Of a stretch of DNA of 64,000 nt, positions 14,039-32,149 are shown in pieces. This stretch comes from Halosimplex rubrum (GTDB taxonomy: Archaea > Halobacteriota > Halobacteria > Halobacteriales > Haloarculaceae), in the NCBI RefSeq assembly GCF_013415885.1, contig NZ_CP058910.1:2852001-2916000 (forward strand), read 5' to 3'. The notes under the pieces are model-generated. The model saw nothing but the letters and a program-made list of their open reading frames with translations. It was not told where the DNA came from and ran no database searches. Numbering within the stretch: position 1 is the first letter of the stretch; each line of letters begins with the position of its first letter. Made by a program: the position numbers and the translations under genes.

Positions 14039-14080
14039 TTAACCAATATTCCCGATCAATACCGGCACAGTGTTGGTTAA
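14039..14080. repeat. Backbone inverted repeat, copy 1
   Basis: TTAACCAATA (14039-14048) and TGTTGGTTAA (14071-14080) are separated by 22 bp. This is one of four copies of the family TTAACCAACA-N21/22-TGTTGGTTAA. Confidence 0.85.
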
Positions 14081-14230
14081 CGGTGGGGCTGGGTCCACTC
14101 CCTCGCCCCACCCACCGCCCGACTCCTCGAGTGAGTGTACCCTGGCGGCCGGGCGATCCGAGGAGGGACCGAATCTGTACGCTATGAGTTGTTTGTCGGC
14201 GTCCCCAGAACGCGGAGCGTTCTGGTGTGC

Positions 14231-14290
14231 GCACGAGAAACGCGTTTCTCGTGCACGCCGGGAGGCGTGCAGCGCACGACAGCGTGCGCT
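14231..14290 (+). promoter_or_regulatory. Three consecutive hairpins upstream of the gene at 14303
   Basis: A perfect 24-bp palindrome (half-site GCACGAGAAACG, 14231-14254) is followed by GCACGCC/GGCGTGC with a 4-nt loop (14253-14270) and AGCGCACG/CGTGCGCT with a 4-nt loop (14271-14290). They end 12 bases before the ATG. They would fold in RNA as a structured leader or act as DNA binding sites. Confidence 0.6.
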
Positions 14291-14302
14291 GCGTGACCCA
14301 TT

Positions 14303-14593
14303 ATGCCTGGTCCCGATCCGCACGACGACACGAGTCGCGACTACGAACAGTTCGAGAAAGAACAGCTCGCCCAGGACCCCGACGCCGCCGGGGCCGATAC
14401 GGCCGACGTCGACGACAGGACGGCCCAGAACCTGGTCAGCGACCTCGTCGACGCGGACGTCGTCACTCCGGTTGCCGAGGACCAAGTTCTGGTTCACGAG
14501 CCCAGCAGCGCCGCGTTCGACTTGACGACGCAACTAGCCGTCTTCCACCGTGGCTGGACGGCCGGCCGTGACGCCGACGCGGAGGGCGAGTGA
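14303..14593 (+). CDS. Conserved-looking plasmid backbone protein, 96 aa
   Basis: The protein is acidic, beginning MPGPDPHDDTSRDYEQFEKE. A folded-looking C-terminal half contains NLVSDLVDADVVTPVAEDQVL and FDLTTQLAVFHRGWTAGRD. No family is recognised. Its TGA overlaps the next start (TGATG), so the two are translationally coupled. The gene sits just downstream of inverted-repeat copy 1 and a triple hairpin. Confidence 0.75.
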   Translation: MPGPDPHDDTSRDYEQFEKEQLAQDPDAAGADTADVDDRTAQNLVSDLVDADVVTPVAEDQVLVHEPSSAAFDLTTQLAVFHRGWTAGRDADAEGE

Positions 14594-14928
14594 TGCAGCA
14601 AACCCTCGTCGGCTGTGCGTTCTGCGACGCGCCGCCCGGAACCAAGACTGGAGAGGCCCATACCTGGGGACAGGACGAGCGGGTCACCCACCCGATCTGT
14701 GACGACTGCGCGATTCAGACGGAGCCGGATCCCGACGAGCGCGATCACGTCGCCTGTGACGGCTGTGGGCTGGTCGTCAACACGCTCGCAGCACTGACCC
14801 GGTTCCGGGTCGAACTCGGGCATCTCGAAGGCCCGTTGCAGTTGTGCGCCCGCTGTAGTCCAGGTGGGCTCGCGACGTACTGGACGTGCGACCTCGAGGA
14901 GCATCTTGTTGCGACGCCAGCGGAGTGA
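14593..14928 (+). CDS. Multi-zinc-knuckle protein, 111 aa
   Basis: Three Cys clusters are visible: CAFCDAPPG; ICDDCAIQTEPDPDERDHVACDGCG in two parts; and LCARCSPGG. They suggest two zinc-binding sites. It may correspond to the haloarchaeal family DUF7558 (from memory, uncertain). The ATG at 14593 overlaps the preceding stop; a GTG one codon earlier (14590) is an alternative. Its role is unknown, and its coupling to the 96-aa protein suggests joint function. Confidence 0.78.
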   Translation: MQQTLVGCAFCDAPPGTKTGEAHTWGQDERVTHPICDDCAIQTEPDPDERDHVACDGCGLVVNTLAALTRFRVELGHLEGPLQLCARCSPGGLATYWTCDLEEHLVATPAE

Positions 14929-15018
14929 CTCCATCCCGCGTCCCAAACAGGGAACTCCCCACAGAGATTACAACAAACAGTCCAAACAGCTATGTTCCAA
15001 CAGTCCCAACACTTGTCT

Positions 15019-15378
15019 ATGTCGAGCGGCGCTATCGATATCGAGGAGTTCGAGGACGCGGATGCCGACGACTTCGAGGAACGAACTGATACCGAGCGGA
15101 TCGTGTTGTTCCTCGACGAGCACGACGACCGTGCGTGGAAGGCGACGACGATCGCCGACCAACTCGGGCTGGAGACGGACGCGGTCAGTGCGATTCTGTC
15201 CCGCCTGAAGGAGCGCGGGCTCGTGCGACACAAGCGTCCGTACTGGGCAATCACGGACGACGAGGAACGGCTGCAGTCCGCCTATCGGCTCCACCGCCAC
15301 CACGAGACGGCTGACGAACAGTACGGCGAGGAGCGGCTTGAAGACCTCAAGACCGACGAGCTGGAGGACGTACAGTGA
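15019..15378 (+). CDS. Winged-helix antitoxin-type regulator paired with PemK
   Basis: The preferred start gives MSSGAIDIEEFEDADADDFE; an ATG at 14992 would add nine residues. The wHTH core is WKATTIADQLGLETDAVSAI, then LSRLKERGLVRHKRPYWAIT, with an acidic helical tail. The downstream toxin gene starts with GTG inside the last codon (4-bp overlap), the arrangement of a type II toxin-antitoxin operon. The regulator probably binds its own promoter and neutralises the toxin through the C-terminal tail. Confidence 0.82.
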   Translation: MSSGAIDIEEFEDADADDFEERTDTERIVLFLDEHDDRAWKATTIADQLGLETDAVSAILSRLKERGLVRHKRPYWAITDDEERLQSAYRLHRHHETADEQYGEERLEDLKTDELEDVQ

Positions 15379-15716
15379 CGGCATTCGAAGACCTGGAACG
15401 TGGCGACATCGTTTGGGCGAGCGACCCGCTCTCGGGGAAAGGCCGCCCGATGCTCGTGCTCGGAACTCCCCAATTCCCGACCCACGGCGTGCAACTCATC
15501 ACGGTCCTCATCTCCACGAAGACCTACCACGAGGAGTCACTCACACTCCGAGATGACGACTACGCGGGTGACTCACTCGGGAAACGAAGTCACGTCCTCC
15601 CGTGGTCGGTTGCGACGCTCACCAGTACTGCAGACGTCGACCACTATCTGACTTCGCTCGTCGACGACCGCATCGAGGACGTGGTGAACCAGCTGACTGA
15701 CTACATTTCCGCGTAA
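15375..15716 (+). CDS. PemK/MazF-family toxin, 113 aa
   Basis: The opening LERGDIVWASDPLSGKGRPM and then LVLGTPQF are the PemK/MazF SH3-like barrel signature (GDIVW...KxRPxLVL). The protein continues with LITVLISTKTYHEESLTL and ends with a helical LTSLVDDRIEDVVNQLTDYI. The family cleaves RNA at specific short sequences. The GTG start overlaps the upstream antitoxin stop, so translation is coupled. Confidence 0.88.
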   Translation: MTAFEDLERGDIVWASDPLSGKGRPMLVLGTPQFPTHGVQLITVLISTKTYHEESLTLRDDDYAGDSLGKRSHVLPWSVATLTSTADVDHYLTSLVDDRIEDVVNQLTDYISA

Positions 15717-15833
15717 GAACCACCGCTTGTCGTGGTAGCCATCAGCCCGTCAGTACGTCCTGTGTCAGTTGATTCTCGAGTGGTCGCGGCACGTGACGCC
15801 AGCAGCGGCACCCCAAACACCTTTTACTGATTC

Positions 15834-15847
15834 ACTGTAAACTGTAA
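15834..15847 (+). promoter_or_regulatory. ACTGTAA direct repeat, candidate operator
   Basis: ACTGTAAACTGTAA lies 9 bases before the GTG start of the HTH-PIN operon and overlaps the expected promoter region. It is a likely autoregulatory site, inferred from position only. Confidence 0.4.
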
Positions 15848-15855
15848 TTGAAACC

Positions 15856-16452
15856 GTGGAACACGACGCAAACCGCGCCGACGGCGACATCGTCCAGGAC
15901 TTCCTCTCGGTCGCGGACCTCCTCGAGGAGCCACAGCTCGCCCAGCTGTACGCGTACCTCGCCCGGGAGGGCGAGGCGACCGTCCAGAACGTGATGGACG
16001 ACCTCGAACTCGCCCAGGGAACGGCTTACAGCTACGTCAACCGGCTCGTCGACGCCGGCGTCCTCACTGTCACCGACGACGAGCAACCCCGACGATACGC
16101 CCCCCGTGAGATCGACCTGACCGTGACGACGGCTGCTGGTGACCGCGAGTACACGATCACGCCGGCGCTCATCGACGCCGTCGGCCGCCGCGAGACGGAC
16201 GCCGACATCGACACCTACATCGACCGCCACGGTGTCGCCGGCCTCGCGACCGCGCTCACCTACGCGATTGCTCGGGAGCGTGGGGAAGTGACCCACCGGC
16301 TGATGGCGGAGGACCTCGACATCTCGCCGCTGGCTGCAGAGATGATCCTCCAGGCGCTCCGGCCCGTCGTCCACGAGCACTACGACACCGAGGAGTCTGG
16401 GGCGGGACTCGACGAGTTGGACATCGACGGCGACGCGGCTGACGACGCGTGA
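15856..16452 (+). CDS. Winged-helix regulator paired with a PIN-like protein
   Basis: This 198-residue protein starts at a GTG. Its N-terminal wHTH is LLEEPQLAQLYAYLAREGEA and then VQNVMDDLELAQGTAYSYVN, followed by a wing (AGVLTVTDDEQPRRYAPREI). The middle region has beta strands and an ALIDAVGRRETDADIDTYID motif, and a second helical domain follows. It overlaps the next gene by 4 bp. Its role is presumably antitoxin and autorepressor of the pair; the family is one of the haloarchaeal DUF-class regulators (DUF7437 from memory, unsure). Confidence 0.8.
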   Translation: MEHDANRADGDIVQDFLSVADLLEEPQLAQLYAYLAREGEATVQNVMDDLELAQGTAYSYVNRLVDAGVLTVTDDEQPRRYAPREIDLTVTTAAGDREYTITPALIDAVGRRETDADIDTYIDRHGVAGLATALTYAIARERGEVTHRLMAEDLDISPLAAEMILQALRPVVHEHYDTEESGAGLDELDIDGDAADDA

Positions 16453-16958
16453 GCGCACTCCACATCGCCGACACCGGCCTGTTCGTCGCGATGGGGCAGC
16501 CCTCGAACAGCCGCTACCAGGCCGTTCGCCGGTGCGCTCGACGGAACGACGTCACCTTCGTCCTGCCCGAACGAGTGTACGAGGAGCTGACCGTCGACGA
16601 GCCCGACGTTGAAGCGCCACCTGTCGACGCCGCGATCGACGAGGGCTGGGCGACGGTTGCGGCGCCGCTGGAGTTCTCCAAGCCGATCGTCTCGCGGGTG
16701 ATGGACGGCGTCCAGCGGTACATCGCGAACGCGGACGACCGCCCTGCCGACGAGGTCGAACGTGCCGACGCCGCCCTCGCCGCCCTCGCTGCCCAGCATC
16801 TCAGTGCGGGGTCGGCGGCCGAGGTCTACATCTACACAACAGATATCGCGGCCGGCGATGGGGCCGAAACCGTACTCGCGAGTGAAGGGTACGGGGACTC
16901 GGTGACGTACGTGAACGGCTTCCGGTTCATCGAAGACCTGGTCGCCGGCGACAGCTAA
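16449..16958 (+). CDS. PIN-domain-like toxin, 169 aa
   Basis: The product begins VSALHIADTGLFVAMGQPSN, where IADTGLFV resembles the first PIN motif (hhhDTxxhh). Later acidic positions (FVLPERVYEEL, VERADAALAALAAQHL, YIYTTDIAAGDGAE) fit the remaining PIN carboxylates. PIN toxins (VapC-type) are Mg-dependent RNases. The GTG start lies inside the last codons of the upstream HTH gene, which supports a toxin-antitoxin operon. The protein is somewhat longer than a usual VapC of about 130 aa. Confidence 0.8.
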   Translation: MSALHIADTGLFVAMGQPSNSRYQAVRRCARRNDVTFVLPERVYEELTVDEPDVEAPPVDAAIDEGWATVAAPLEFSKPIVSRVMDGVQRYIANADDRPADEVERADAALAALAAQHLSAGSAAEVYIYTTDIAAGDGAETVLASEGYGDSVTYVNGFRFIEDLVAGDS

Positions 16959-17221
16959 CGCTGTTCGTGGTCGAGGTCACGAGCGTCGAGGTCGCCGGCG
17001 AGATACTGCTCGCCCTCTCGTGTGATGTCGTAGACACCGTTGCCGAGGTGGACGAGGAGTCCATATTCGACGAGTGTCTTGCAGCGGGCGTTGATGTGTT
17101 GCCGGGAGAACCGGACGCGGTCGCTATCAGCCATTTCCTTGGGGGTATCAGGGCCGTCCTCAGAGAGATGCTCCAGAATGCGGTCATCGGCGCGAGACAT
17201 CCAGTCGGCGTCAAATCGCAT
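16955..17221 (-). CDS. PhiH1-repressor-like winged-helix protein, 88 aa
   Basis: The start at 17221 gives MRFDADWMSRADDRILEHLS, the recurring opening of proteins named after the halovirus PhiH1 repressor. RVRFSRQHINARCKTLVEYG and LLVHLGNGVYDITREGEQYL then form the HTH and wing. A start at 17245 would add eight residues. It converges on the HTH-PIN operon with a 4-bp overlap of the 3' ends. It probably represses lysogeny or plasmid genes, although its target is not visible. Confidence 0.85.
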   Translation of the reverse strand: MRFDADWMSRADDRILEHLSEDGPDTPKEMADSDRVRFSRQHINARCKTLVEYGLLVHLGNGVYDITREGEQYLAGDLDARDLDHEQR

Positions 17222-17342
17222 AATCGCTTCTGGTTGCGCCGACACTATCCCGAACGCGCTAAGTCAAATAGAGGAGCGTATCGCTTCTGTGGTTGACTCC
17301 TAACGTTTTAAACGTCTGTCACCCAAAGCCCCGAGTGTTCAG

Positions 17343-17603
17343 ATGCATTCCCCTCCAGCGGACAGTTCGGGCGGACCGAATGACCTCGTCGTCGAGATCA
17401 TCGAGACACTGGAGACATGCGGGCTCGAAGACGACGGCTATCAACTCCACGATTACGTGGACATCGATGCGCTCGAACAGTTGCTTGCCTCATCCGATGG
17501 GGACATCGCCGTCCAGTTTACTGTCGAAGGGATTCCACTCGAGGTCTCACCGGACGGTGTCGACGTCATCGTCGAGGATGAGTCCGAGTGCGTCAACGAA
17601 TAA
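17343..17603 (+). CDS. HalOD1 output-domain protein, 86 aa
   Basis: The sequence LVVEIIETLETCGLEDDGYQ, then LHDYVDIDALEQLLASSDGD and IAVQFTVEGIPLEVSPDGVD, follows the pattern of the HalOD1 domain, a small haloarchaeal module thought to act in signal output. It is freestanding here. The promoter area contains ACGTTTTAAACGT (17303-17315), a palindrome that could be the TATA region or an operator. Its 3' end overlaps a truncated primase frame. Confidence 0.75.
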   Translation: MHSPPADSSGGPNDLVVEIIETLETCGLEDDGYQLHDYVDIDALEQLLASSDGDIAVQFTVEGIPLEVSPDGVDVIVEDESECVNE

Positions 17604-18711
17604 CGACAGCTTCGAGACGGCACTCGAGTACGTCGAAACAGGGAATGCTGATGGCGTTGGCTTCGTCTTTACTGACGATGATCCGATTGTTGGCGTGGAT
17701 CTCGATGACTGCCGCGATCCTGAGACCGGGGACGTCGACGACGCGGCGCTGGACATCATTGAGCGACTCGACTCCTATACGGAGATTTCGCCATCCGGCA
17801 CCGGCTACCACGTGCTCATCACCGGAGAGCTACCGGAGGGCCGAAACCGCCGCGGAAGTATCGAACTGTACGACACCGCGCGCTTTTTCACCGTTACTGG
17901 CAACCACGTTGAGGAGACTCCCACTCACGTTGCACGCCGACAGGACGCGCTCGTAGCGATTCACCGCGAGTACGTCCATGACACTGATAGCGATGTGAAG
18001 TCCGAATCCGGGTATCGTGGCACTACTGACGAGCAGTCAGCAACGAACGGTGGAGGCGGGGTTGACGTTGACCTCGAGGACGAGGAGATTCTCGAGAAGG
18101 CAACGAACGCGTCGAATGGGACGAAGTTCGAGCGACTCTGGAACGGGAACACGGTCGGATACGACAGCCAGTCGGAAGCCGACATGGCACTCTGCTATCT
18201 GCTGGCGTTCTGGACCGGCGGCGACCAAACACAGGTAGATCAGCTCTTTCGCCAGTCAGGGCTGCTCCGGGAGAAGTGGGATGAAGTCCACTACGCGGAT
18301 GGGTCGACGTACGGGGAGAAGACCATCGAGCGGGCGATTGCGAACACCTCGGAGTTCTATGATCCCGACTCGGGCGACGAGTCCACGCAATCCCACGCCA
18401 GTTCGAGTACGTCGACTACCGATGCCGGACGTGACGAATCAGATCGTAGTCACGCGTATCTGGCCGAGAAAAATCGGCTGTTAACCGACCGTGTCGACGA
18501 ACTCGAGGCCACGCTCGAACAGAAAAACGAGCGTATCGAGACACTCGAAGCAGAGATCGAGCGGCTCACGGAAGAACTCGCAGATCGTGACCGAGAGACA
18601 GACCGGACCCACGAAGAGCAAGCGGTCACTGCGAGCGAGAGCGATGATGAGTCCGAGACAGCGTCTGTTTGGGGGCGGACGAAACGGTTGTTCGGGAGTG
18701 GCTCCGAGTAA
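17578..18711 (+). pseudogene. N-terminally truncated primase/polymerase-like protein (NrS-1 type)
   Basis: After the HalOD1 gene, a second frame reads SFETALEYVETGNADGVGFV, then FTDDDPIVGVDLDDCRDP, then DSYTEISPSGTGYHVLITGE and RRGSIELYDTARFFTVTGNH. This is the pattern of haloarchaeal proteins related to phage NrS-1 primase-polymerase, with the DxD pair in GVDLDDC. Roughly the first 90-100 residues are missing. The possible start (ATG 17578) lies inside the HalOD1 gene. A helical domain follows (WNGNTVGYDSQSEADMALCY), then a coiled coil (RLLTDRVDELEATLEQKNER and after) and a Ser/Glu-rich tail. It could be a translated shortened protein rather than a dead gene. Confidence 0.7.
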
Positions 18712-18864
18712 CGGCGAGACCGCGACGTAGCGTTTATCCTCCCCGTGAGGGGTGACGGGATTTCGAACTGCCTGGAGCAACGTACGCATTCTGAGCGACA
18801 GCACCAGCGAGACCGTGGTATCGACCCTAGTACTCAATCACGAGGCGATTCGCGGTGGAGTTTG

Positions 18865-18901
18865 TCACCCCCAGAGGGGTGAGGGGGCGCAGTGAGCGCC
18901 C
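18865..18901 (+). promoter_or_regulatory. Double hairpin leader upstream of the gene at 18913
   Basis: TCACCCC-CAGA-GGGGTGA (18865-18882) is followed by GGGCGC-AGTGA-GCGCCC (18885-18901), ending 11 bases before the ATG. A related CCCC-GTGA-GGGG element lies at about 18739-18752. It belongs to the GC-hairpin leader family seen also at 24526, 24953 and 26017. Confidence 0.6.
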
Positions 18902-18912
18902 ACTGAACTACC

Positions 18913-19353
18913 ATGTCCTCAGAACACAAGCGACAGCAACCACAACTACGTAACGAGCAGACAGAGCAAGCAAGTGAAGCACCGTGGGGGGATCTCGAAC
19001 TGACGGTTCCCAACGAGAGAAGTCAGCTCTCCATCGTCTCACTCGTCGAGTGCGCTCTTGTGGAACTCACCCACGAAGAGGTCGGTGCGGAGTACGTCTC
19101 CGCGAACGTGTGGGGAGCGAAGCGAACGCAATTTATCGCCGTCGACGACGTCGGGGAAACGTTCCAGAAACGCCACTACGACGAGCGACTCGGGTGGCAC
19201 GAGTCGACGGTCAGCCGGCAGGCTGTTCGCGAGGAACTCATCACCCGACTCACGCGGTCATCATCGCTGGCATCGGATCGCAGTCACGACACCCCAGTCG
19301 ACGGTGCGGATACGTTTAGCGTCAAACCAGCTCGAGCGCTCCGACGAAATTGA
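18913..19353 (+). CDS. Plasmid backbone protein of unknown function, 146 aa
   Basis: No family is recognised. After a polar N-terminus comes a hydrophobic helix (SIVSLVECALVELTHEEVGA). The C-terminal half (TQFIAVDDVGETFQKRHYDE, then LGWHESTVSRQAVREELITR) ends in FSVKPARALRRN. A truncated paralogue lies at 13787-14029. Both are followed within 9-10 bp by the same inverted repeat, so gene and repeat were copied as a unit. The Trp-His and Arg-rich patches suggest nucleic-acid or protein binding, but this is a guess. Confidence 0.75.
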   Translation: MSSEHKRQQPQLRNEQTEQASEAPWGDLELTVPNERSQLSIVSLVECALVELTHEEVGAEYVSANVWGAKRTQFIAVDDVGETFQKRHYDERLGWHESTVSRQAVREELITRLTRSSSLASDRSHDTPVDGADTFSVKPARALRRN

Positions 19354-19363
19354 GCCCGTCAGG

Positions 19364-19404
19364 TTAACCAACAATCGCGCCAGCCTTCTGGAGTTGTTGG
19401 TTAA
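19364..19404. repeat. Backbone inverted repeat, copy 2
   Basis: TTAACCAACA (19364-19373) and TGTTGGTTAA (19395-19404) are separated by 21 bp. It lies between the backbone gene and the HTH-TumE pair. Confidence 0.88.
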
Positions 19405-19510
19405 TACGGTGTCCCGCTCAACTTTACCCAGCTGGTAGCCCATTCGCCGCGTTGATCGGGAAACTATTCCCTGAAGCAAGAACTATATCCATCGAGGCAC
19501 AAGAACACGT

Positions 19511-20044
19511 ATGGCCGATTCAGAATCCACGAATGGACCGCCGCCGTTTGAAGACGCCTTCAGCGGCGAGGATGTCGAACAGCGCATCTACGGAACCATC
19601 CTCCAGACCCGCGAGCCCGCCACCGCGAGCGCGATCACGGAGCGCGTCGACTGTGACCCGAAGACCGCCCGGAAGTACCTCGACTGGTTCGCAGACCTCG
19701 GCATCGTCACGCGCCACGACGGGCATCCGGCCACCTACGAACGCAACGACGCGTACTTCGAGTGGCGCCGCATCAACCAGCTCGCCGCAGACCACTCTGT
19801 CGAGGAACTACAGGTACGCGTTCGCGAGCTGACGACGCGAATCACCGACTACGAAGCGGTGTACGACGCCGGGACGCCGGCCGCGGTCGACGCCGTCGCC
19901 GTCGCGGAGGGGAGCGACGAGCGGACGATCGACGACGTGTACAGTGACCTCGGCGACTGGGAAACCGCTCGGGAAGAGCGCGAGCGCTATGAACGCGCCC
20001 GCCAGCAACGCACCGGTGCCGAGGGCGAACAGGCGTCCGGGTAG
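19511..20044 (+). CDS. HTH regulator of a TumE-like pair (DUF7342-like), 177 aa
   Basis: The wHTH is YGTILQTREPATASAITERV, then DPKTARKYLDWFADLGIVTR and YERNDAYFEWRRINQLA. A helical segment ELQVRVRELTTRITDYEAVY and a charged tail follow. This is the pattern of the haloarchaeal family DUF7342 (from memory), which is usually encoded next to a small toxin-like protein. The next gene begins 8 bp downstream on the same strand. It probably binds its own promoter, which lies near inverted-repeat copy 2. Confidence 0.8.
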   Translation: MADSESTNGPPPFEDAFSGEDVEQRIYGTILQTREPATASAITERVDCDPKTARKYLDWFADLGIVTRHDGHPATYERNDAYFEWRRINQLAADHSVEELQVRVRELTTRITDYEAVYDAGTPAAVDAVAVAEGSDERTIDDVYSDLGDWETAREERERYERARQQRTGAEGEQASG

Positions 20045-20052
20045 GACCAGCG

Positions 20053-20487
20053 ATGGCACCGCCAGCTGGCGATGGGGGCAGCCCTGCCCCCATCGACCGT
20101 CCGATCCTCGAGTTTCTACAGACGCGTCTCCGAGCGACACAGCAAGTCGAACAGGCGACCATCACGGACGCGAGCGGCCATCTCGAACTGTACGTCCGGT
20201 TCGCGTCGCCGTACTATCCAGCGACCGTCGACGAGGCTACTCTTACCGTTCGCTGGTACACGAACGACGATTTCAAAATTCACTATCGGGAGATACATCC
20301 GGAGAGTACCTGGGAGTGCCGGTGGGACCAGCATCCGAACCCCCACAATACACGAGACCACTTTCATCCCCCACCGACCGCCCCGACGCCCGGCGACGAT
20401 GCCTCATGGCCGACCGATCATCGTGATGTGCTGAGGCTCGTCCTTGACGAGGTCGAAGACCGAATCACCCAGTTATGGCACGAGTAG
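20053..20487 (+). CDS. TumE-like (DUF6516-type) toxin candidate, 144 aa
   Basis: The beta-rich middle (HLELYVRFASPYYPATVDEA, TLTVRWYTNDDFKIHYREIH) leads to ECRWDQHPNPHNTRDHFHPP. This last part resembles the RYDN-P-H...HxH ending of DUF6516/TumE proteins. A C-terminal helix (DVLRLVLDEVEDRITQLWHE) follows. TumE-type proteins are toxins in toxin-antitoxin pairs with an HTH partner, which fits the upstream gene. The assignment rests on motif resemblance and operon context. Confidence 0.7.
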   Translation: MAPPAGDGGSPAPIDRPILEFLQTRLRATQQVEQATITDASGHLELYVRFASPYYPATVDEATLTVRWYTNDDFKIHYREIHPESTWECRWDQHPNPHNTRDHFHPPPTAPTPGDDASWPTDHRDVLRLVLDEVEDRITQLWHE

Positions 20488-20607
20488 GCGGTCCGGCAAT
20501 CGCGACCATTCGGTTTCGTCGAACAGCGTACGCCGCACGACGGTGCTCACCCATCTCGGTGACGGTGCGGCCATCCTCCCCGTGCATGAACCGACCTGTG
20601 GATTCGA

Positions 20608-22278: not shown

Positions 22279-22301
22279 GGATTCGCGCCCGGAATACGGG
22301 T

Positions 22302-22535
22302 TTGCGTGCAGGAGTCATCTGCCACGGCCCGTGGACGCTGGTCGAGGCCGACGTGGTCGAGGGTCGGACGCTGACTTCCTTCCCCAGTTTACAGACCGAC
22401 ATCCGCAACGCGGGCGGCGAGTGGGTCAACGAGGAAGTCGTCGTCGACGAGGGACTGGTGACCAGCCGCAAGCCCGACGACATCCCCGCCTTCTGTGATA
22501 AAATCATCGAGGAGTTCGAGGAAGGTCGCCACTAA
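22302..22535 (+). pseudogene. C-terminal fragment of a DJ-1/PfpI-family protein
   Basis: GVICHGPWTLVEADVVEGRT, then LTSFPSLQTDIRNAGGEWVN and EEVVVDEGLVTSRKPDDIPA, is the C-terminal half of a PfpI/YhbO-type glutamine-amidotransferase-like protein. The nucleophile cysteine lies in the ICHG motif. The N-terminal 100 or so residues are missing. The fragment starts where the MBL-fold gene on the opposite strand is cut, so one recombination event removed both 5' ends. Confidence 0.85.
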
Positions 22536-22632
22536 CGGCGCGGTAGCGCGAAAGGGTCCATCGCCACGTCCGGCGTTCGTGAACGAGATGTGAGATTCGT
22601 CTTTGCTGCTTCTGTCTGTCCAATTTCAGATG

Positions 22633-22938
22633 TTAGGGGAGTTTGGCCTCCAGTACGTCGACTTCTTCTATCTCCGGCGGTTCTGCGAACAGCTCGTCCG
22701 CGTTTTCCTCCAAGGCAGCAGCGATTTCGCCCGAGAGATGCGCTTCCCGACCGGATTCATCCGGAAAGGTGTCGAAGATGCCGAACGTCGAATCGTCCAT
22801 GCGGAGCGCGAACCACGTGGTGGTGTCCGGTTCTTCCTCGGCCATCGGCAGTGCCGAACGGAGGAATTCCTCGACATCGGATTCTTTGCCGGACTGTGCT
22901 TGGAGTCGAACGAGGAGGGCGACGTTTGCGTCGGTCAT
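22633..22938 (-). CDS. Antibiotic-biosynthesis-monooxygenase (ABM)-fold protein
   Basis: The start at 22938 gives MTDANVALLVRLQAQSGKES. VEEFLRSALPMAEEEPDTTT, WFALRMDDSTFGIFDTFPDE and GREAHLSGEIAAALEENADE follow. This is the ABM/YgiN dimeric alpha-beta barrel pattern (TxxWFAxR, FGIFDTFPxExGRxAHLxG). A start at 22968 is less likely. Members act as small oxygenases or quinol-related enzymes; many have no assigned role. It is part of a short chromosomal-type cargo segment with the PfpI fragment. Confidence 0.85.
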   Translation of the reverse strand: MTDANVALLVRLQAQSGKESDVEEFLRSALPMAEEEPDTTTWFALRMDDSTFGIFDTFPDESGREAHLSGEIAAALEENADELFAEPPEIEEVDVLEAKLP

Positions 22939-23053
22939 ACCCAGTCCGTAGGTAGGTGCGCAACTCACATAACTATTTATGCTAGACGCTCAGGTGCTGA
23001 GGAGTACTCGGGTGAAACGCAGAGCCTTACCCGCTGCTTCCTCCTTCCGATTC

Positions 23054-24379
23054 TTACGCCGCCTGAGTTACGTGATCTTCTTTCCGGGGCGGTAGCGGCT
23101 GTGTCGAGGACTCACCCAACACCTGCTCAAAGCTAAATGAGCCGTGGCGGTGAGCGAAGCTCTCCGCCGGCTCGCCGTTTGTGAACGTCGACATCGATTC
23201 ACGCAGCGCCAACAACGATGTACGCGCGCGTGCCGCATGGCACCGCGCGTACGGGACTCCAAGGCCGTATTTCAGCCGCCAGTTCCCCCCTTCGATTGCA
23301 TTCGTACTCACTGGCCCATTGAACTCTTCTTCGTCCTCGTCCCAGAACGATGGGTGCTCCTCACGGAGTGTCGCCACTATCTCCTCGTACGCAGTCTCGT
23401 ACTCGTCTTCGAGATACTCCCGCAACTCCTCTAACTCGCCCGCCTCGTGCAGTTCGGACACGCGCTCGTCGCTGCGAGCGCGTGTCCGGAGCTTGTGGAC
23501 GAGACACTTCACCCGATCCGGCAAGATGTCGTTGTAGCAGTCGTTGTCGTCGGTGAGCCAATAATCCACACCCAAGAGCGGGAAGACGAGCGCGAGCGCC
23601 AGCGCTCGCGCGAAGGCGGTGTTCCGACACTGGAGTCCGGCGAAACAACCCAGCTGAGTCAGATAGGAACATCCGACAGTGAACCCTTCCGGCCACTTCT
23701 TCGGGTTTTCTCCCTCCTGTTTCCGGCGCATATTTTCCTCGTAGAGGTCTTTCTTTGCGCCCTTCTTCGCCGGATAGGTCTCGTCGGCGACCCCGACGAG
23801 ACCGTCGATGTCCTCGGCAGCGAGTTCGTCGGCGAACTCGGTTTTGAGTTCGTCAACGGTGCTGACACCGAACAACAGCGAGAGGAAGTTCATCGAGAGG
23901 ATGCAGCCGGCAATCGTGACGCTGTGCTGCTCGGCGACTTCGTCGCCGAACAGCTCGGCATAGCGTTGGATCGTATCGCGGTCAACCTGGAGACCGTACT
24001 GATTCTGAAGAATCCGTTCGCACGCGTGGAACGGATTCTTCGCCGCATGGAACAGGCAGAGATCAACGACTGGTTTGGCGTATTCACAGTCCTCGTAGAA
24101 CAGCTCCCCGATATCGCCATCGTAGGAATGTCTGCACTCGGAGCACTGATACCGCTGAATCTCGACAGTGATCTCGTCGAAGCCATCCTCGGTGATGAGG
24201 ATGGCGAAGAGCCGATCCGTTCGGTAGCCGTTCTTCCAGACCGTGGTTTCACCGCACTTCGGACAGGGCCGCGGGTCTCCGACCCGCTGGCCCTGAAACC
24301 CGCGAAACCAACTCTGAAACGCATGAATTAGACCGAGTGGTACGAGGCTGTTCAGCGTCTTTTCTTCGGTTTCGTGCAT
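23054..24379 (-). CDS. IS transposase with N-terminal zinc ribbon, 441 aa
   Basis: The N-terminus has CPKCGETTVWKNGYRT and later CSECRHSYDG, a four-Cys zinc ribbon typical of transposases in which a DNA-binding ribbon precedes an HTH (VDRDTIQRYAELFG). The catalytic part contains GVADETYPAKKG, DYWLTDDNDCYNDILPDRVK and TNAIEGGNWRLKYGLG, consistent with a DDE core (VADE, TDDND, AIEGGN Glu). It resembles haloarchaeal ISNCY-like elements related to ISHwa16, but I am not sure of the name. I could not identify terminal repeats in the flanks, so the element's limits are open. The reading frame is intact. Confidence 0.8.
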   Translation of the reverse strand: MHETEEKTLNSLVPLGLIHAFQSWFRGFQGQRVGDPRPCPKCGETTVWKNGYRTDRLFAILITEDGFDEITVEIQRYQCSECRHSYDGDIGELFYEDCEYAKPVVDLCLFHAAKNPFHACERILQNQYGLQVDRDTIQRYAELFGDEVAEQHSVTIAGCILSMNFLSLLFGVSTVDELKTEFADELAAEDIDGLVGVADETYPAKKGAKKDLYEENMRRKQEGENPKKWPEGFTVGCSYLTQLGCFAGLQCRNTAFARALALALVFPLLGVDYWLTDDNDCYNDILPDRVKCLVHKLRTRARSDERVSELHEAGELEELREYLEDEYETAYEEIVATLREEHPSFWDEDEEEFNGPVSTNAIEGGNWRLKYGLGVPYARCHAARARTSLLALRESMSTFTNGEPAESFAHRHGSFSFEQVLGESSTQPLPPRKEDHVTQAA

Positions 24380-24525
24380 GAGTAGTGGCCAGTAAGAGAG
24401 GGTGGTATTTCACTCCCGTTGCAGACACCACCCCAAGAGGGGCACGAGCGTATTCTATGACAGGGTGCGACGGAGTCACTCCGTAACCCTGAGCGGATTC
24501 TTCCTGCCGGTGTGACGCCGTCGTC

Positions 24526-24560
24526 CAGTTTTTCGAGCCCCCGAAGAGGGCGAAGGCTCG
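24526..24560 (+). promoter_or_regulatory. GC-hairpin leader upstream of the gene at 24592
   Basis: A T-run is followed by a nested hairpin: outer CGAGCC/GGCTCG, inner CCC-GAAGA-GGG. It ends about 32 bases before the GTG start. Same layout (T-run then C-rich/G-rich hairpin) as at 24953 and 26017. Confidence 0.55.
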
Positions 24561-24591
24561 ATAACGAGTCTTCAGACTGAGGTGAATTCCC

Positions 24592-24939
24592 GTGAGTCAA
24601 CAACAACGTGTGAACGACGTCTCGATCGATGCGATTCCAGTCGATATCACGAACACACAATCCGGCGAGGTCGAGCCCGCCGAAGTTCCCGAGGAGATCC
24701 GGTCAATCACTCGTGGACTCGCAAGTGAGCAGCCGCCGACGAACCCGCTCGTCGTCTTGAAAGCGGCTCGCTGGTGGTACATCCACGGGAAGGGCGGGAC
24801 TGATCCCGCGTTCCAGTGGGCCACCGAGTGGGCGCGACACCTCGCGACCGACACGCCCAGCGACGTGGAGCAGTTCGATGAGTTCCTCGAGTACCTCGTC
24901 GCGGTCGGCTTCGCTGACGAGAAAGCAGTCCTGCGGTGA
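24592..24939 (+). CDS. Plasmid backbone protein, 115 aa, function unknown
   Basis: The gene has a GTG start. The product contains AEVPEEIRSITRGLASEQPP, TNPLVVLKAARWWYIHGKGG and FQWATEWARHLATDTPSDVE, a compact helical protein with conserved-looking Trp residues. No family is recognised. It is co-directional with the ArdC/ImmA-like gene and the SWIM gene, each of which has its own hairpin leader, suggesting separate but coordinated transcription. Confidence 0.72.
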   Translation: MSQQQRVNDVSIDAIPVDITNTQSGEVEPAEVPEEIRSITRGLASEQPPTNPLVVLKAARWWYIHGKGGTDPAFQWATEWARHLATDTPSDVEQFDEFLEYLVAVGFADEKAVLR

Positions 24940-24952
24940 CCGCCGCCGCGAG

Positions 24953-24982
24953 TTTTTTGTGCGCCCCCAAGGGGTGCGGCGC
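24953..24982 (+). promoter_or_regulatory. GC-hairpin leader upstream of the ArdC/ImmA-like gene
   Basis: TTTTTTG is followed by GCGCCCCC-AA-GGGGTGCGGCGC, a nested hairpin (outer GCGCC/GGCGC). It lies about 45 bases before the ATG at 25028. Confidence 0.55.
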
Positions 24983-25027
24983 GTCCTGAACTGACGCAAT
25001 CGCCGTGAACTCGATTCGGTGAATATT

Positions 25028-25957
25028 ATGGCTACGGCCAGTGACTCGTCGGTCTCGTTCGAGGAGACCGACGCCCGACACGACGAGATGCACAGTACCA
25101 TCGAAGACTGGATCGACGACCTCGTTGCAGACGTCGAGGACGCGCAGTCCAGCTCAGAGTTCCAGGAGTGGCTTGATGTTCAATCCCGGTTCCACGACTA
25201 TTCGCACCGGAATACACTCCTCATCAATCTCCAGTGCCCTGACGCGACGAAGGTCGCGGGGTACAACACCTGGCGGAATGAGTTCGACCGGCACGTCCAG
25301 GAGGGCGAGCAGGCGATCTGGATCTGGGCCCCGATCATCACCACGCAATGTCCTGAGTGCGAAAATTCGCCCAGCTACCACGAGCAAAGCGGCTGTGAGT
25401 ACGACGAGACGGCGCCGGACGAGTGGTCGAAAGGGCTTGTCGGGTTCAAACCAACGGCTGTCTTCGACGTGTCCCAGACCGAGGGTGAGCCGCTTCCCGA
25501 GTTGGAGACAGAGGCGACTGGCGATGCCGACGACCTAGTACCCGCACTCGAGGATGCAGCCGCTGAGATCGACGTGACGGTCCGTATCGTCGACGCTGTC
25601 GACTGGGAGCATGGCGACGCCAAGGGCGTCTGCAAATACCGGAGTAAGCGTGATCTCCAACCAGTCGTTGAGGCGAAAGCCCGCACGAATCAGGCCGATC
25701 TCGCCGTGACGCTCATCCACGAGTTCGCTCACGCGCTCCTCCACGCAGACGTCACCGACGAGACCGAGCGGGCGAAACGCGAGGTCGAAGCCGAAGCCGT
25801 CGCGTACATCGTCGGTCGGTATTTCGATCTCGACACGAGCGGATCCGCATTCTACTTAGCCGCGTGGCAAGGTGATGAGCCGGACGTGATTCAGGATCGT
25901 CTCAGTCGGATCAGTTCGACGGCTCAGGAAATCATCGGAACGGTTACAGAGAGCTGA
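25028..25957 (+). CDS. ArdC-like N-terminal plus ImmA/IrrE-like metallopeptidase, 309 aa
   Basis: The start at 25028 gives MATASDSSVSFEETDARHDE; 25019 is an in-frame alternative. Residues about 55-102 (HDYSHRNTLLINLQCPDATK, VAGYNTWRNEF, AIWIWAPI) follow the ArdC N-terminal ssDNA-binding/antirestriction pattern. Four Cys (QCPECEN, GCEYDE) interrupt this domain and probably bind zinc. The C-terminal domain has HEFAH (231-235) with a downstream Glu (EVEAEAVAYIVG), the zinc peptidase site of the DUF955/ImmA group. ArdC proteins protect incoming plasmid DNA from restriction, which supports a transmissible replicon. Confidence 0.88.
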   Translation: MATASDSSVSFEETDARHDEMHSTIEDWIDDLVADVEDAQSSSEFQEWLDVQSRFHDYSHRNTLLINLQCPDATKVAGYNTWRNEFDRHVQEGEQAIWIWAPIITTQCPECENSPSYHEQSGCEYDETAPDEWSKGLVGFKPTAVFDVSQTEGEPLPELETEATGDADDLVPALEDAAAEIDVTVRIVDAVDWEHGDAKGVCKYRSKRDLQPVVEAKARTNQADLAVTLIHEFAHALLHADVTDETERAKREVEAEAVAYIVGRYFDLDTSGSAFYLAAWQGDEPDVIQDRLSRISSTAQEIIGTVTES

Positions 25958-25975
25958 ACGCGCGGTTCTCGCCTG

Positions 25976-26017
25976 TTAACCAACATCTGGACGCTAATAC
26001 CGTTCTGCGTTGGTTAA
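25976..26017. repeat. Backbone inverted repeat, copy 3
   Basis: TTAACCAACA (25976-25985) and CGTTGGTTAA (26008-26017) are separated by 22 bp. The right arm runs directly into the T-run of the hairpin leader of the next gene. Confidence 0.85.
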
Positions 26018-26048
26018 GTTTTTAGCGCCCGCCGAGGGGCGGAGGCGC
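26017..26048 (+). promoter_or_regulatory. GC-hairpin leader upstream of the SWIM gene
   Basis: A T-run (TTTTTA) is followed by the nested hairpin GCGCC-CGCC-GAGG-GGCG-GA-GGCGC, ending 19 bases before the ATG. It abuts inverted-repeat copy 3. Confidence 0.55.
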
Positions 26049-26067
26049 ATTCCGGTCTCCACGAATC

Positions 26068-26886
26068 ATGACTGACCAGTATGTAACCGCCGTCCTCGAC
26101 GAGGCGGAACGAGTTGCAGACCAGCACGACCAGGTCGCCCGGTCGACGGACAATCCAGCGCACGAGTATCTCAGATACGCAATCCTTCGGTTGCTCGAAG
26201 GCGAGTCTGACGATGCACCAGCAGACGTGCCGCAGATCGACGGCGTGACCGTCGGGTACGGGGAGGACGAGGCAATGTTTGATAGTTGGAGCGCCGACGT
26301 CGAGTGGTGGGAGACGGTACCGGCGCAAGAAGCGTGTACTCGCTTCCGCGTGTTCTACCCCGACGAGCACGAGACCGTCCCGCGGGTGATCGTCGACGTG
26401 ATGGGCGCCCTCGGCGCGTGGCGCGTCTGGACCGGCAGCGCTGCCGCCTGCGGCTCCTACGACCATCGCGAACGGCGCGAAATCCACTTCCTCTGGCCGG
26501 AAGGGCATCCGGTCGAAGAACTTCTTCCAGATCGCCTCCAGGGACCTGACGCCGCCGTTGCGCCGGATGGCGGACAAACAGGTGACGTGCGTGACCGGAT
26601 GGTCGTCACGGAGCACTCAAGCCAGCAGGACGACCTCGAACCGCGAACCAGACGCGCCGTCGACGAAGAGATGGCCGTCTCGCTGCTCGAAAAGGGCGGC
26701 CGCTACGAGATTCACTCAGCGTCCGGGAATCGATACGAAGTGGATGTGATCAGCGAATCCTGTACCTGTCCAGACTGGACGCAACGAACGCCCGATGGTG
26801 GATGTAAACATATGCGCCGGGCGGATCACGAAATCAAGCAGGGACGTGTCCCGCGACCGGACGGTCGACTTCCCTCGGATTCCTGA
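26068..26886 (+). CDS. SWIM zinc-finger protein, 272 aa
   Basis: The C-terminal YEVDVISESCTCPDWTQRTP and GGCKHMRRADHEIKQGRVP form a SWIM finger (CxC...CxH), which binds DNA or protein. The N-terminal two thirds are unassigned; they contain DSWSADVEWWETVPAQEACT and VPRVIVDVMGALGAWRVWTG. This type recurs in haloarchaeal plasmids near ArdC-like genes. Inverted-repeat copy 3 and a hairpin leader lie just upstream. Its role is unknown, perhaps plasmid DNA metabolism. Confidence 0.8.
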   Translation: MTDQYVTAVLDEAERVADQHDQVARSTDNPAHEYLRYAILRLLEGESDDAPADVPQIDGVTVGYGEDEAMFDSWSADVEWWETVPAQEACTRFRVFYPDEHETVPRVIVDVMGALGAWRVWTGSAAACGSYDHRERREIHFLWPEGHPVEELLPDRLQGPDAAVAPDGGQTGDVRDRMVVTEHSSQQDDLEPRTRRAVDEEMAVSLLEKGGRYEIHSASGNRYEVDVISESCTCPDWTQRTPDGGCKHMRRADHEIKQGRVPRPDGRLPSDS

Positions 26887-26901
26887 GTGAATCCCGGCGA
26901 T

Positions 26902-27705
26902 CTACTCCGCTGGACGGACTGTCTCACCATCTCGGGAGACCCGGTCGAACTCCTCGAGATACGTGACTCGCTCCACGACCTCCGCCGTATCGAGTTCGAG
27001 GTCGGCCGCCAATTCGTCAACCGTCTTTGGTTCATCGAGTATCTGGAGTACCTCGAGCCCGCGGTAGTACCGGGTCGTCAGCTCCTGGACGCGGTCCTCG
27101 ATCGGCGTGGTCACCCCGTACCGCTCGTCGAGGTCGACCAGGGCCTCGTTCGCGAAGGTGGCGAACTGGTCGTCGCCGAGCCGGTCGATCTGCGCCTCGA
27201 GTTCGGCCCGGACGACGTCGTAGTTGAGTCCAGCCTGCACGAGCATATTCATATCCTCGATGTCGTCGTCGCGGCCTGCGATCAGTTTGAACAGGAAGAT
27301 ATCCTCGTTGTTGACTAGGCGGACCGTCAGTCGATCCGTGTCGAGGAACTGCTCGCTGCGCTCTTGCATCCCGTCGGTGAGCACGAGTTTGTTCGCGACC
27401 TGCTGGTTGAAGATATCGAGGCGACACCCATCGTCGTTCTCGACGCAACTCGTCGCCCCCAGCGCCCGATAATCTGGATCCAGCGACTGGACCTCCGCAT
27501 ACCCGAGGTCCATCAGGACGGCCCACAGCTGGCCGTACGCGTCGCCATCTGGGACGACCAGGTCGATATCTTTCGTCGCCCCCTTGAGGTCTCGTAACGA
27601 CATCGCGCCACCACCGATCAGGTAGACCGTGAGCGGTTCAGATAGCCCGTCCCCGATGCGCTGGAATTCGTTCTCGATGTACTCGCGTCCGAATGTGGGT
27701 CTCAT
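26902..27705 (-). CDS. Nucleotidyltransferase-like toxin (DUF6036/AbiEii-like), 267 aa
   Basis: VYLIGGGAMSLRDLKGATKD followed by IDLVVPDG matches the NTase-fold signature GG(A)x...KDxD. Later parts are CRLDIFNQQVANKLVLTDGM and FLFKLIAGRDDDIEDMNMLV. A wHTH-like C-terminus (KTVDELAADLELDTAEVVER) closes the protein. Enzymes of this class in abortive-infection or toxin systems transfer nucleotides to tRNA or protein. It is co-transcribed with, and overlaps by 4 bp, the regulator gene at 27702-28628, the order typical for an AbiE-like pair. Confidence 0.82.
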   Translation of the reverse strand: MRPTFGREYIENEFQRIGDGLSEPLTVYLIGGGAMSLRDLKGATKDIDLVVPDGDAYGQLWAVLMDLGYAEVQSLDPDYRALGATSCVENDDGCRLDIFNQQVANKLVLTDGMQERSEQFLDTDRLTVRLVNNEDIFLFKLIAGRDDDIEDMNMLVQAGLNYDVVRAELEAQIDRLGDDQFATFANEALVDLDERYGVTTPIEDRVQELTTRYYRGLEVLQILDEPKTVDELAADLELDTAEVVERVTYLEEFDRVSRDGETVRPAE

Positions 27706-28628
27706 TGTGGTAGTGGCACCGCGTAGTCAGCCGCCAGCTCCTGGAACTCATCCCACTCCGGGAGCTGCTCGTCATCAACCTCCCCGTACGTCTCGAGGTA
27801 GCGCAGCAAGGCGTCGATTTCGTCTTCGAGACCATATTTCGCCGCCTGCTCTCGGAGGTCCTCCTCGTCGACGTCGACGTGGCTGAGCAGGAGGAGACAG
27901 TACGAGCGGTGGCGGCTGCCGTCGTCGATCAGTAGCGTGTGACAGCAAAGTTCCGCCGGCGAGACTGCGTCGAGATCCTCGGAGTGGAAGTAGTAGCGAT
28001 GGCCGGTGAGCAGGAATTGGAGGTCGAAGGCCGCGAACCGAGCGAGGCCGGTTTCGTGGAACGCCTCTGCGTCGATTTCCGTCTCGGTCTGGGCGAGGAA
28101 TTCGTCGTAGTCCTCCCAGAGAATCGTGCCCTTCGGGGCGACGGCTTCGAGGCGCTGGCGATGTAGATGGTGTGCGAGTTCACGGGTGAACTCGTGGAGG
28201 CGGTCGAAATCGGCGTTGAACTCGTAGCGGCCGTCGGCCGTCCCGACGAGCCCACGGTCGCGAAACCGCTTGAGGACCCGGTTGACCGTGTTGCGGTAGT
28301 TGTCGCTCCGGTCGGCGATCTCGGAGACGGTTCGCGGCTGGTCGAGGTAGTACAGCACTTCGAGTGCCTTGCCCGTCAGCAGTTCGGGGAAGTCGATGTG
28401 GGAGTGCTGACGAACGAGGTCCTGATAGAGCTCGACGGCACGAGCGTCTGACGGGATGACTCGTTTTCGCCGGCCGTCGCGTTCCGTGTAGACGAGTCCC
28501 TTCTCGACGAGGTCGGCGACGGCACGAGAGAGGTAACTCTCGCTGTGGTCGAGCTTCGTCGCGAGTTCGGAGATCGTGTCGCCACGGTCGACCGTGGCGA
28601 GGACCTCGAGTTCGATGCGCCGGAGCAC
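27702..28628 (-). CDS. Two-wHTH regulator paired with the nucleotidyltransferase, 308 aa
   Basis: The first wHTH is ELEVLATVDRGDTISELATK, LDHSESYLSRAVADLVEKGL. The second is ALEVLYYLDQPRTVSEIADR, NYRNTVNRVLKRFRDRGLVG. A long C-terminal domain follows. It probably acts as the antitoxin and transcriptional repressor of the two-gene operon. The TATA-like sequence TATATAAAG (about 28650-28658) stands about 25 bp upstream. The divergent spacer with the gene at 28767 contains inverted-repeat copy 4. Confidence 0.82.
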   Translation of the reverse strand: MLRRIELEVLATVDRGDTISELATKLDHSESYLSRAVADLVEKGLVYTERDGRRKRVIPSDARAVELYQDLVRQHSHIDFPELLTGKALEVLYYLDQPRTVSEIADRSDNYRNTVNRVLKRFRDRGLVGTADGRYEFNADFDRLHEFTRELAHHLHRQRLEAVAPKGTILWEDYDEFLAQTETEIDAEAFHETGLARFAAFDLQFLLTGHRYYFHSEDLDAVSPAELCCHTLLIDDGSRHRSYCLLLLSHVDVDEEDLREQAAKYGLEDEIDALLRYLETYGEVDDEQLPEWDEFQELAADYAVPLPQ

Positions 28629-28649
28629 GGTGTAACAGAATACGAAACT

Positions 28650-28658
28650 TGTATATAA
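28650..28658 (-). promoter_or_regulatory. TATA box of the wHTH-nucleotidyltransferase operon
   Basis: TATATAAAG as read on the plus strand, 22-30 bp upstream of the start at 28628. Confidence 0.5.
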
Positions 28659-28711
28659 AGAAGTTTCGAGTAGTGTTACAGTCAGCAGGCACGAGAGCCG
28701 TCTCCATCGTC

Positions 28712-28752
28712 TTAACCAACAAAACTATGAATTCGTGGGCCGTGTTGGTTAA
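28712..28752. repeat. Backbone inverted repeat, copy 4
   Basis: TTAACCAACA (28712-28721) and TGTTGGTTAA (28743-28752) are separated by 21 bp. It sits in the divergent promoter region, its right end 14 bp before the ATG at 28767, so it would overlap the core promoter of that gene. Confidence 0.9.
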
Positions 28753-32010: not shown

Positions 32011-32037
32011 TAACCCCCTACTACTGAATGGGTGCGG

Positions 32038-32141: not shown

Positions 32142-32149
32142 GGGGTCCA

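Follow-up and report, generated by a model that had tools for sequence, protein, structure and literature searches.

Four spaced palindromes of Halosimplex rubrum are copies of a docking site widespread in salt-loving archaea and very probably read by a small protein encoded beside orc1/cdc6

A long inverted repeat that recurs four times in an archaeal sequence raises the question of which protein reads it and what the scattered copies do. The repeats lie in a 64,000-nucleotide stretch of Halosimplex rubrum (contig NZ_CP058910.1, positions 2,852,001 to 2,916,000 of the forward strand), hereafter the window, and have the general form TTAACCAACA-N21/22-TGTTGGTTAA. All four copies described in an earlier note are present, and their arms are near-identical as claimed, being perfect in copies 2 and 4 and carrying one mismatch each in copies 1 and 3. 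Site 1 (14039..14080; TTAACCAATA-N22-TGTTGGTTAA, mismatch in the left arm) lies 9 bp past the TAG codon (14027-14029) of a truncated gene. Site 2 (19364..19404; N21, arms perfect) lies 10 bp past the stop of gene 18913-19353, and site 3 (25976..26017; TTAACCAACA-N22-CGTTGGTTAA, mismatch in the right arm) lies 18 bp past the stop of gene 25028-25957 and 50 bp before the start of gene 26068. Site 4 (28712..28752; N21, arms perfect) ends 14 bp before the start codon of a plus-strand gene (28767..29090) for a 107-amino-acid protein, P107, which is distant kin of DUF6788 and the putative binder of the sites. The spacer of site 4 starts with AAACTATG, which is rich in A and T, resembles a TATA element and is conserved across P107 promoters. 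The pattern was never obtained from shuffled window sequence. Arm matches with at most one mismatch numbered eight in the window, all within the four pairs, and thus there are no single arms.

Some details of the earlier description needed correction. The copies had been placed ahead of plus-strand genes; copy 4 does overlap a likely core promoter, but the other three sit just past the stop codon of the left-hand gene. The arms are two helical turns apart when measured edge to edge, but about three turns (31-32 bp) from centre to centre. The inner sequences are unrelated within the window, although a paralogue of copy 4 elsewhere in the contig (2712743) differs from it by a single base in the spacer. 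The “plasmid backbone” is right in kind, in that the region is plasmid-like and holds three pairs of P107 with the replication initiator gene orc1, but in this assembly it is not a free plasmid and lies inside a 4.48-Mb single contig. A search of that contig, with perfect arms at spacers of 15-30 bp and mismatches permitted for spacers of 21 and 22 bp only, found 13 sites (10 perfect, 3 with one mismatch), all within 2.591-2.881 Mb.

The element is not peculiar to this region. With a spacer of 20-23 bp it was present in 257 of 391 Halobacteria genomes (two thirds) and in 66 of 86 genera, amounting to 1750 copies with a maximum of 29 per genome, and the reversed pattern gave zero matches among those listed for the same 391 genomes. 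A virus collection contained it in 50 stretches (42 contigs), isolate ChaoS9 among them, and the genome scan behind the loci used for context analysis covered at least 119 stretches. Spacers of 21 bp (89) and 22 bp (77) accounted for 166 of 203 distinct sites, the remainder having 20 bp (16), 23 bp (13) or other lengths (8), so that the arm centres are typically about 31.5 bp, or about three helical turns, apart. Sites fell outside any called gene in 194 of 201 cases; for this and the other gene-context tests, genes came from a simple purpose-made caller. Chance origin was ruled out by the zero counts in shuffles and for the reversed pattern. The window's repeats are four instances of a DNA-protein docking site widespread in the sampled salt-loving archaea. 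The exact palindrome also occurred in two bacterial contigs from metagenome-assembled genomes, of Omnitrophica (L044) and of Tritonobacter (L082, twice within 120 bp), both excluded from the gene-context counts.

Clustering of the genes next to the sites singled out one family with a site in a fixed place, the P107 family. In 29 of its 32 members the start codon was preceded by a site at a distance of 1-20 bp (typically 14 bp); among the rest, locus L030 had a one-mismatch site at the same place, L115 had none, and the third was the window's own copy, already counted as L009. Because these loci had been picked by the site, the test was redone on loci picked by protein similarity. At E 1e-30 or better, 209 of the 391 genomes had a P107 homologue, a number that rises to 298 at E 1e-3; sites were present in 207 of the 209, with a mean of 7.9 per genome. 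In the best-scoring loci, to which the counts for the three branches are confined (43, 17 and 30), a long-spaced palindrome ended at most 20 bp before the start in 81 of 90 homologues, against 2 of 600 random other genes, a control from which upstreams with the canonical arm were left out.

The arms differed from branch to branch. TTAACCAACA arms stood directly before the start codon in 43/43 canonical loci, AGTTACCCCACA arms before the start in 15/17 loci of the TTACCCCACA-type branch, and CTTATGTA(A/G/T)CA, CCTTGTGCAACA or TCTTACCTAAC in 23/30 loci of the TTATGTAACA-type branch, although L312, counted among these 23, has another shape. Eleven divergent plasmid homologues behaved similarly: directly before the start codon, L253 and L261 had canonical arms, L252 (with its annotated start moved), L256, L257 and L259 had AGTTACCCCACA arms, and L262 had TTATGTAACA arms; L255 was degenerate, and no such palindrome preceded the start in L254, L258 and L260. 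The half-sites roughly fit the frame TT(A/G)nnnnACA. Perfect TTAnnnnACA palindromes with spacers of 14-29 bp were of four types only in 2.19 Mb of loci, namely ACCA (261, a count that is high because the loci were chosen for ACCA), TCAA (3), CCCC (3) and TGTA (1), and a shuffle contained none.

Proteins and sites also varied together across 242 genomes. A matching site accompanied the canonical protein in 130/131 genomes, compared with 30/111 without it (p 1e-37); the corresponding figures were 12/17 versus 2/225 (p 8e-15) for the TTACCCCACA-type pair and 20/21 versus 1/221 (p 5e-27) for the TTATGTAACA-type pair. The six mismatched protein-site pairs gave p 0.01-0.65, the value of 0.01 belonging to ACCA protein with TGTA site and to TGTA protein with ACCA site, which we read as reflecting shared plasmid content. 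The slight association of mismatched pairs speaks against mere co-residence on plasmids as the cause of the pairing. Variant sites were also found away from the protein, as P107 was not in the stretch for 10 of 29 loci fetched by two variant patterns. The long-spaced palindromes before P107 genes, the change of arms by branch and the variants that track those branches thus make P107 very probably the binder, and we consider it highly probable, on these sequence comparisons, that it reads the palindromes. There would be at least four arm specificities, each apparently tied to its own protein branch. The window's contig (G000 C1) further holds three TTATGTAACA-type spaced palindromes (1233902, 1306815 and 4420517), although the window's genome gave no strong match to the protein of that branch; these sites may mark remnants or an unseen binder.

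The window's P107 gave no Pfam match of note, and none to DUF6788 (PF20586), ParB or helix-turn-helix (HTH) families. Some members of the wider family do match DUF6788, 11 of 37 at E 0.01 or better (best 2.4e-11), and one TTATGTAACA-type gene carries that annotation. A model built from 37 sequences (predicted local distance difference test score, pLDDT, 75.5) has helices at its N terminus (14-22 and 25-54) and a sheet of three strands at its C terminus (73-79, 82-91 and 94-102), joined by a linker of low confidence; the strand region is the richest in invariant residues among 21 close relatives. We take this sheet to resemble three-stranded DNA-reading domains, for which Foldseek gave nothing solid. 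The best matches of a profile search of PDB sequences were three designed proteins (E 1e-5 to 2e-3), with all others above 0.4, and NCBIfam yielded one chance match only. If P107 were a helical dimer from which two readers hang on flexible tethers, it could match arms three turns apart and spacers of 18-24 bp.

The positions of the other copies were considered next. Once the gaps next to P107 had been set aside, those with a site were tandem in 79, divergent in 21 and convergent in 30 cases, versus 489, 149 and 112 for site-free gaps (p 0.03). Relative to random placement in the same gaps, distances of -5 to 15 bp between site and stop codon were in excess (48 versus about 22 expected) and those under 50 bp to a following start were depleted (13/127 versus about 36), showing that the non-P107 copies avoid promoters. 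The spacer at P107 promoters starts with a conserved AT-rich AAaCTAT that the dispersed sites do not have (25 versus 66 sites, with 21-bp spacers). Promoter control, as put forward in the earlier note, is thus supported at copy 4, but the other copies tend to avoid promoters, which weakens the case for a classical operator regulon. Several viral sites (L139, L143, L161, L163, L178 and others) start exactly at a stop codon, with TAA inside the outer TTAA of the arm.

P107 is a neighbour of the replication initiator gene. In nine plasmids chosen for the presence of P107 and a known length, together with the window's region, it lies 97-2515 bp from orc1/cdc6 in 14/14 genes. When sites with at most one mismatch were mapped on the nine plasmids and those within 450 bp of P107 were excluded, 16 of the remaining 54 fell within 5 kb of P107, compared with 4.9 expected (p 2e-5), and 29 within 10 kb, compared with 10.1 expected (p 9e-9). 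The palindromic sites are therefore concentrated near the origin, with orc1 standing in for it. Within 1.5-kb flanks, orc1 accompanied 37/43 canonical P107 genes, and it was found in the flanks of 3/18 site-centred loci without P107. In virus loci, 9/18 orc1-adjacent gaps held a site, versus 34/242 other gaps (p 6e-4). ParA was somewhat commoner in loci with P107 (4/31 versus 3/86, p 0.08) and lies 0.6-1.6 kb from P107 in three phages, ChaoS9, phiH1 and phiCh1. On plasmid 2 of Natronococcus occultus, a gene for an archaea-specific SMC-related protein (L261, 6904-8868) lies near P107 and orc1, and its product is a possible partner for DNA organisation. The earlier note had pictured, as the opposite outcome, repeats at random positions on unrelated chromosomes or inside transposons and without a link to backbone genes. 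What we found instead is that the arms track one protein branch, that copies cluster around P107 and orc1 in complete plasmids, and that P107, orc1, ArdC/IrrE-like, SWIM-like and HTH/nucleotidyltransferase genes recur beside sites.

Viruses carry the element as well. Of their 42 distinct site-bearing contigs, the search for P107 covered 33, all but the 9 shorter ones; in the P107 scan of viruses only ChaoS9 matched, and its annotation names the protein a homologue of the phiH1 relative. That relative is remote from P107 (28% identity over 76 residues). In phiH1 and phiCh1, of whose 58 kb the first 50 were scanned, there was no canonical site. Their version of it is TTATCAAACA-N24-TGTTTGATAA, one copy in each phage having a single change, found at 31633-31676 and 38208-38251 in phiH1 (L250) and at 31807-31850, 33587-33630 and 37658-37701 in phiCh1 (L251). 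This TTATCAAACA-type site lies at the promoter of the operon of the P107 relative in phiH1 and directly before the P107 relative in phiCh1, with one further place in the former and two in the latter. One phiH1 copy is at the start of the constitutive T8 transcript; others follow repH and, in phiCh1, precede a ParA/Soj gene. BJ1 has one site with one mismatch, and Humcor1 and HJTV-4 have none even with five mismatches allowed. Terminase, integrase, primase and ParA are among the proteins encoded beside viral sites, where two families of small virus proteins that seem rich in cysteine, c14 (phrog_17157) and c81 (phrog_18310), also recur (e.g., L138, L164 and L152).

From the sequence-supported observations (the sites and their spread, protein-site covariation, orc1 linkage, clustering and promoter avoidance), we infer dimer binding, autorepression, bridging or partition, and borrowing as the parts of a mechanism. 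P107, encoded beside orc1/cdc6 on haloarchaeal plasmids, would bind the palindromes as a dimer joined via its N-terminal helices, with one C-terminal beta-sheet domain for each 10-bp arm, three turns apart and on the same face of the DNA. Since the arms flank the TATA-like element at the P107 gene, binding there should repress P107, which would thus control its own synthesis. The dispersed copies, clustered at orc1-P107 and set between genes where promoters are little disturbed, would act jointly to help the replicon persist, by analogy with scattered parS sites or KorB operators on bacterial plasmids. Viruses and other elements that have sites and no P107 would borrow the P107 of a resident plasmid. 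The earlier note had proposed a dimeric or looping regulator, or a segregation or recombination protein, that acts on the whole replicon. This was right in kind, as the site is symmetric and suited to a replicon-wide DNA-binding protein, with regulation and segregation both among the options, but no protein was named, and the evidence points to the gene behind copy 4. As a whole, we lean slightly towards P107 sites as an autoregulated, origin-linked, scattered centromere-like or origin-organising set. For a centromere-like role of P107 and its sites in particular, we see the balance as even. More tentatively, and with less than even confidence, P107/DUF6788-like proteins and their spaced palindromes may form a previously undescribed archaeal centromere system that is non-ParB, built on a coiled-coil dimer with beta-sheet DNA readers, encoded next to Orc1, acting through some five to ten sites scattered near the origin of each plasmid, divided into several specificities blind to one another, and parasitised by viruses with sites but without the protein.

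Several observations weigh against this account. The genome-level pairing of protein and site is partly built in, because every P107 gene comes with the copy at its promoter; the protein cut-offs (E 1e-30 for the canonical, about 1e-24 for the CCCC and about 1e-37 for the TGTA branch) were chosen by eye where the ranked matches showed gaps, and related genomes are not independent. Clustering was judged against a null of uniform placement, and there was a mild excess near orc1 genes away from P107 (12/33 within 10 kb versus 6.9 expected). In the other two branches orc1 was within 1.5 kb of P107 in only 7/17 and 10/30 loci, and orc1-adjacent gaps of the genomic loci were not enriched in sites (13/52 versus 109/581, p 0.27). 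The orientation difference among gaps is modest (p 0.03). The P107 model has a predicted template modelling score (pTM) of 0.39; no recognised DNA-binding fold was found in the protein, and Foldseek gave no solid match (best E 0.5). As to partition, the 54 sites of the nine plasmids did not cluster near ParA (9 within 10 kb versus 10.3 expected), and ParA was within 1.5 kb in 0/43 canonical P107 loci and 4/90 over all branches. Absence of tight linkage and of clustering near ParA weakens the candidacy of P107 as a ParA partner. Haloarchaeal ParA genes overlap a small downstream gene of about 130 amino acids (pJ7-1 80650-81872, CP101165 27-1359, phiCh1 31923-33084), which could encode ParA's true centromere-binding partner. 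Lastly, 50 of 182 genomes without a strong P107 still have sites (mean 2.0 each), and 31 of 33 site-bearing virus records lack P107, 2/33 encoding it, although the records may be fragments.

Other roles have to be set beside this one, with which they are not mutually exclusive. Like the repressors of cluster A mycobacteriophages, P107 bound at scattered sites might block RNA polymerase within operons and where genes end; plasmid and provirus genes would then stay silent or insulated, and there would be immunity to incoming elements whose arms match. The sites are found between genes, past stop codons and in gaps between virus genes that run the same way (for instance, ahead of the gene for a terminase large subunit in L133 and behind a long tandem gene in L148), cluster A phage sites are likewise mostly off promoters and co-vary with their repressor according to excerpts of PMC6550527, and sites in viruses without P107 would suit control of superinfection by a resident plasmid. 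Stoperators, however, mostly keep one orientation relative to transcription in the same excerpts, and P107 sites are palindromic; enrichment around orc1-P107 and the excess in convergent gaps (30/130 versus 112/750) fit less well too, and we regard such silencing as a minority possibility. Rather unlikely in our view is a control of replication or copy number, in which P107 would bridge (“handcuff”) origin-near sites or act on Orc1 loading and so limit initiation. The adjacency of P107 and orc1 in 14/14 genes, the concentration of sites within 10 kb and the more frequent occupancy of orc1-adjacent gaps in virus loci are what such control would lead one to expect, but 25 of 54 copies lie beyond 10 kb, where simple origin handcuffing has no need of them, and no site was shown to be inside an origin.

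The P107-lacking virus records (31/33) and the 50/182 genomes make a second reader possible, and a different, host-encoded protein might read the sites, P107 being one of its targets. A single host reader would not change arms with the P107 branch, phiH1 and phiCh1 included, and we hold this explanation to be improbable. That the sites are mobile or recombination sequences, whether like repetitive extragenic palindromes or miniature inverted-repeat transposable elements or as cassette or recombinase sites, we consider extremely improbable. They are multicopy, palindromic and intergenic, as such sequences would be, yet 203 of 211 matches are distinct in their spacers, so whole units are not copied; moreover, diverged spacers stand beside the same gene family (in a search that required perfect arms), and the spacing is held at 21-22 bp.

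The remaining genes of the window give the sites a recurrent setting. An Orc1/Cdc6-type replication initiator (30778..32010, plus strand) is the neighbour of P107, from which it is separated by a two-open-reading-frame insertion sequence (29270-30270) that explains the wider gap of the pair here (1685 bp) and whose transposase we take to be IS630-like. Divergent from P107 is the gene of a MarR/HVO_2833-like HTH protein (27702..28628, minus strand), in whose cluster a site adjoins the gene in 11/12 members. Next to it lies a likely nucleotidyltransferase (26902..27705, minus strand), so designated from its position, as the same-place gene of plasmid pJ7-1 is annotated as a DUF6036 nucleotidyltransferase. 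A presumed SWIM-like zinc-finger protein (26068..26886, plus strand), so labelled from its motif, is a recurrent site neighbour without a Pfam match. Site 3 follows the stop of an ArdC-N/IrrE-like metallopeptidase (25028..25957, plus strand) whose Pfam matches are slightly under the curated cut-offs. Site 2 follows an uncharacterised protein (18913..19353, plus strand), and in its cluster the site starts 8-13 bp past the stop in 10/12 members. The truncated gene before site 1 (13802..14029, plus strand) is the C-terminal half of a paralogue of the 18913-19353 gene, with 81% identity to its best relative. In pJ7-1, a plasmid of Natrinema sp. J7-2 that carries eight sites, the site-flanking backbone genes stand in the same order as in the window. 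Between sites 1 and 2, two possible toxin-antitoxin pairs occupy 15019-15716 and 15856-16958; they presumably consist of HTH-like and PemK/MazF-like genes and of HTH-like and PIN-like genes, respectively. An annotated MarR and PemK/MazF pair is present in CP101165.

We found no description of the site or of a function for the P107 family in the literature searched (top-ranked full texts, mostly from open journals). No title on archaea was among the listed full-text matches to the arm strings, no paper in the full-text literature searched named DUF6788/PF20586, and the top-ranked literature on haloarchaeal partition and centromeres contained no haloarchaeal plasmid centromere. The analysis connects an orphan DNA element of class-wide occurrence with one particular, unstudied protein family and provides DUF6788-like proteins with a testable function. 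The arm specificities of the branches make plasmid compatibility and the viral borrowing of plasmid functions directly testable, and genetic work in halophiles would gain a useful tool from a protein-site pair that comes in orthogonal variants.

How does this set compare with known systems? Small archaeal proteins, SegB and AspA, bind a palindrome ahead of the gene or cassette that encodes them and are proposed to mark centromeres, according to excerpts of PMC5120986, which also state that it is unknown whether further SegB sites are scattered. Unlike P107, they are encoded with SegA or ParB-ParA, and AspA is a winged helix-turn-helix protein. The stoperators of cluster A mycobacteriophages, as excerpted from PMC6550527, number 20-30, are mostly outside promoters, are bound by one protein and vary in sequence with the repressor. 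Most P107 sites are similarly not in promoters; however, stoperators are oriented with transcription and the phages carry their own repressor, whereas P107 sites are palindromic pairs in tandem, divergent and convergent gaps. KorB has scattered palindromic operators with partition and regulatory roles (RP4, excerpts of PMC10954446; OB, excerpts of PMC5016525), but it belongs to the ParB family, has an HTH motif and regulates globally, in contrast to P107, whose non-promoter copies avoid promoters. The IncC plasmid ParB is described in excerpts of PMC10954446 as having 12-14 scattered parS palindromes, one of them over the promoter of its own operon, and SGI1 carries such sites and is stabilised by plasmid proteins. 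P107 shares with this system the scattered palindromes, one of which is at the binder's promoter, and the separate elements with sites. It differs in that ParB possesses ParB/KorB domains and acts together with ParA from a shared operon, whereas P107 has neither such domains nor a tight ParA link, and in that its sites consist of 10-bp arms 21-22 bp apart. Nor does P107 show the HTH/CTPase fold of ParB, given the absence of a Pfam ParB or HTH match and a model made of helices and a three-stranded sheet. A site at the binder's own promoter, promoter-avoiding palindromes near the origin and protein-less elements with sites nevertheless together make up the pattern of IncC ParB/parS-SGI1 and KorB. 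P107 is not a member of the ParB family but may work like one.

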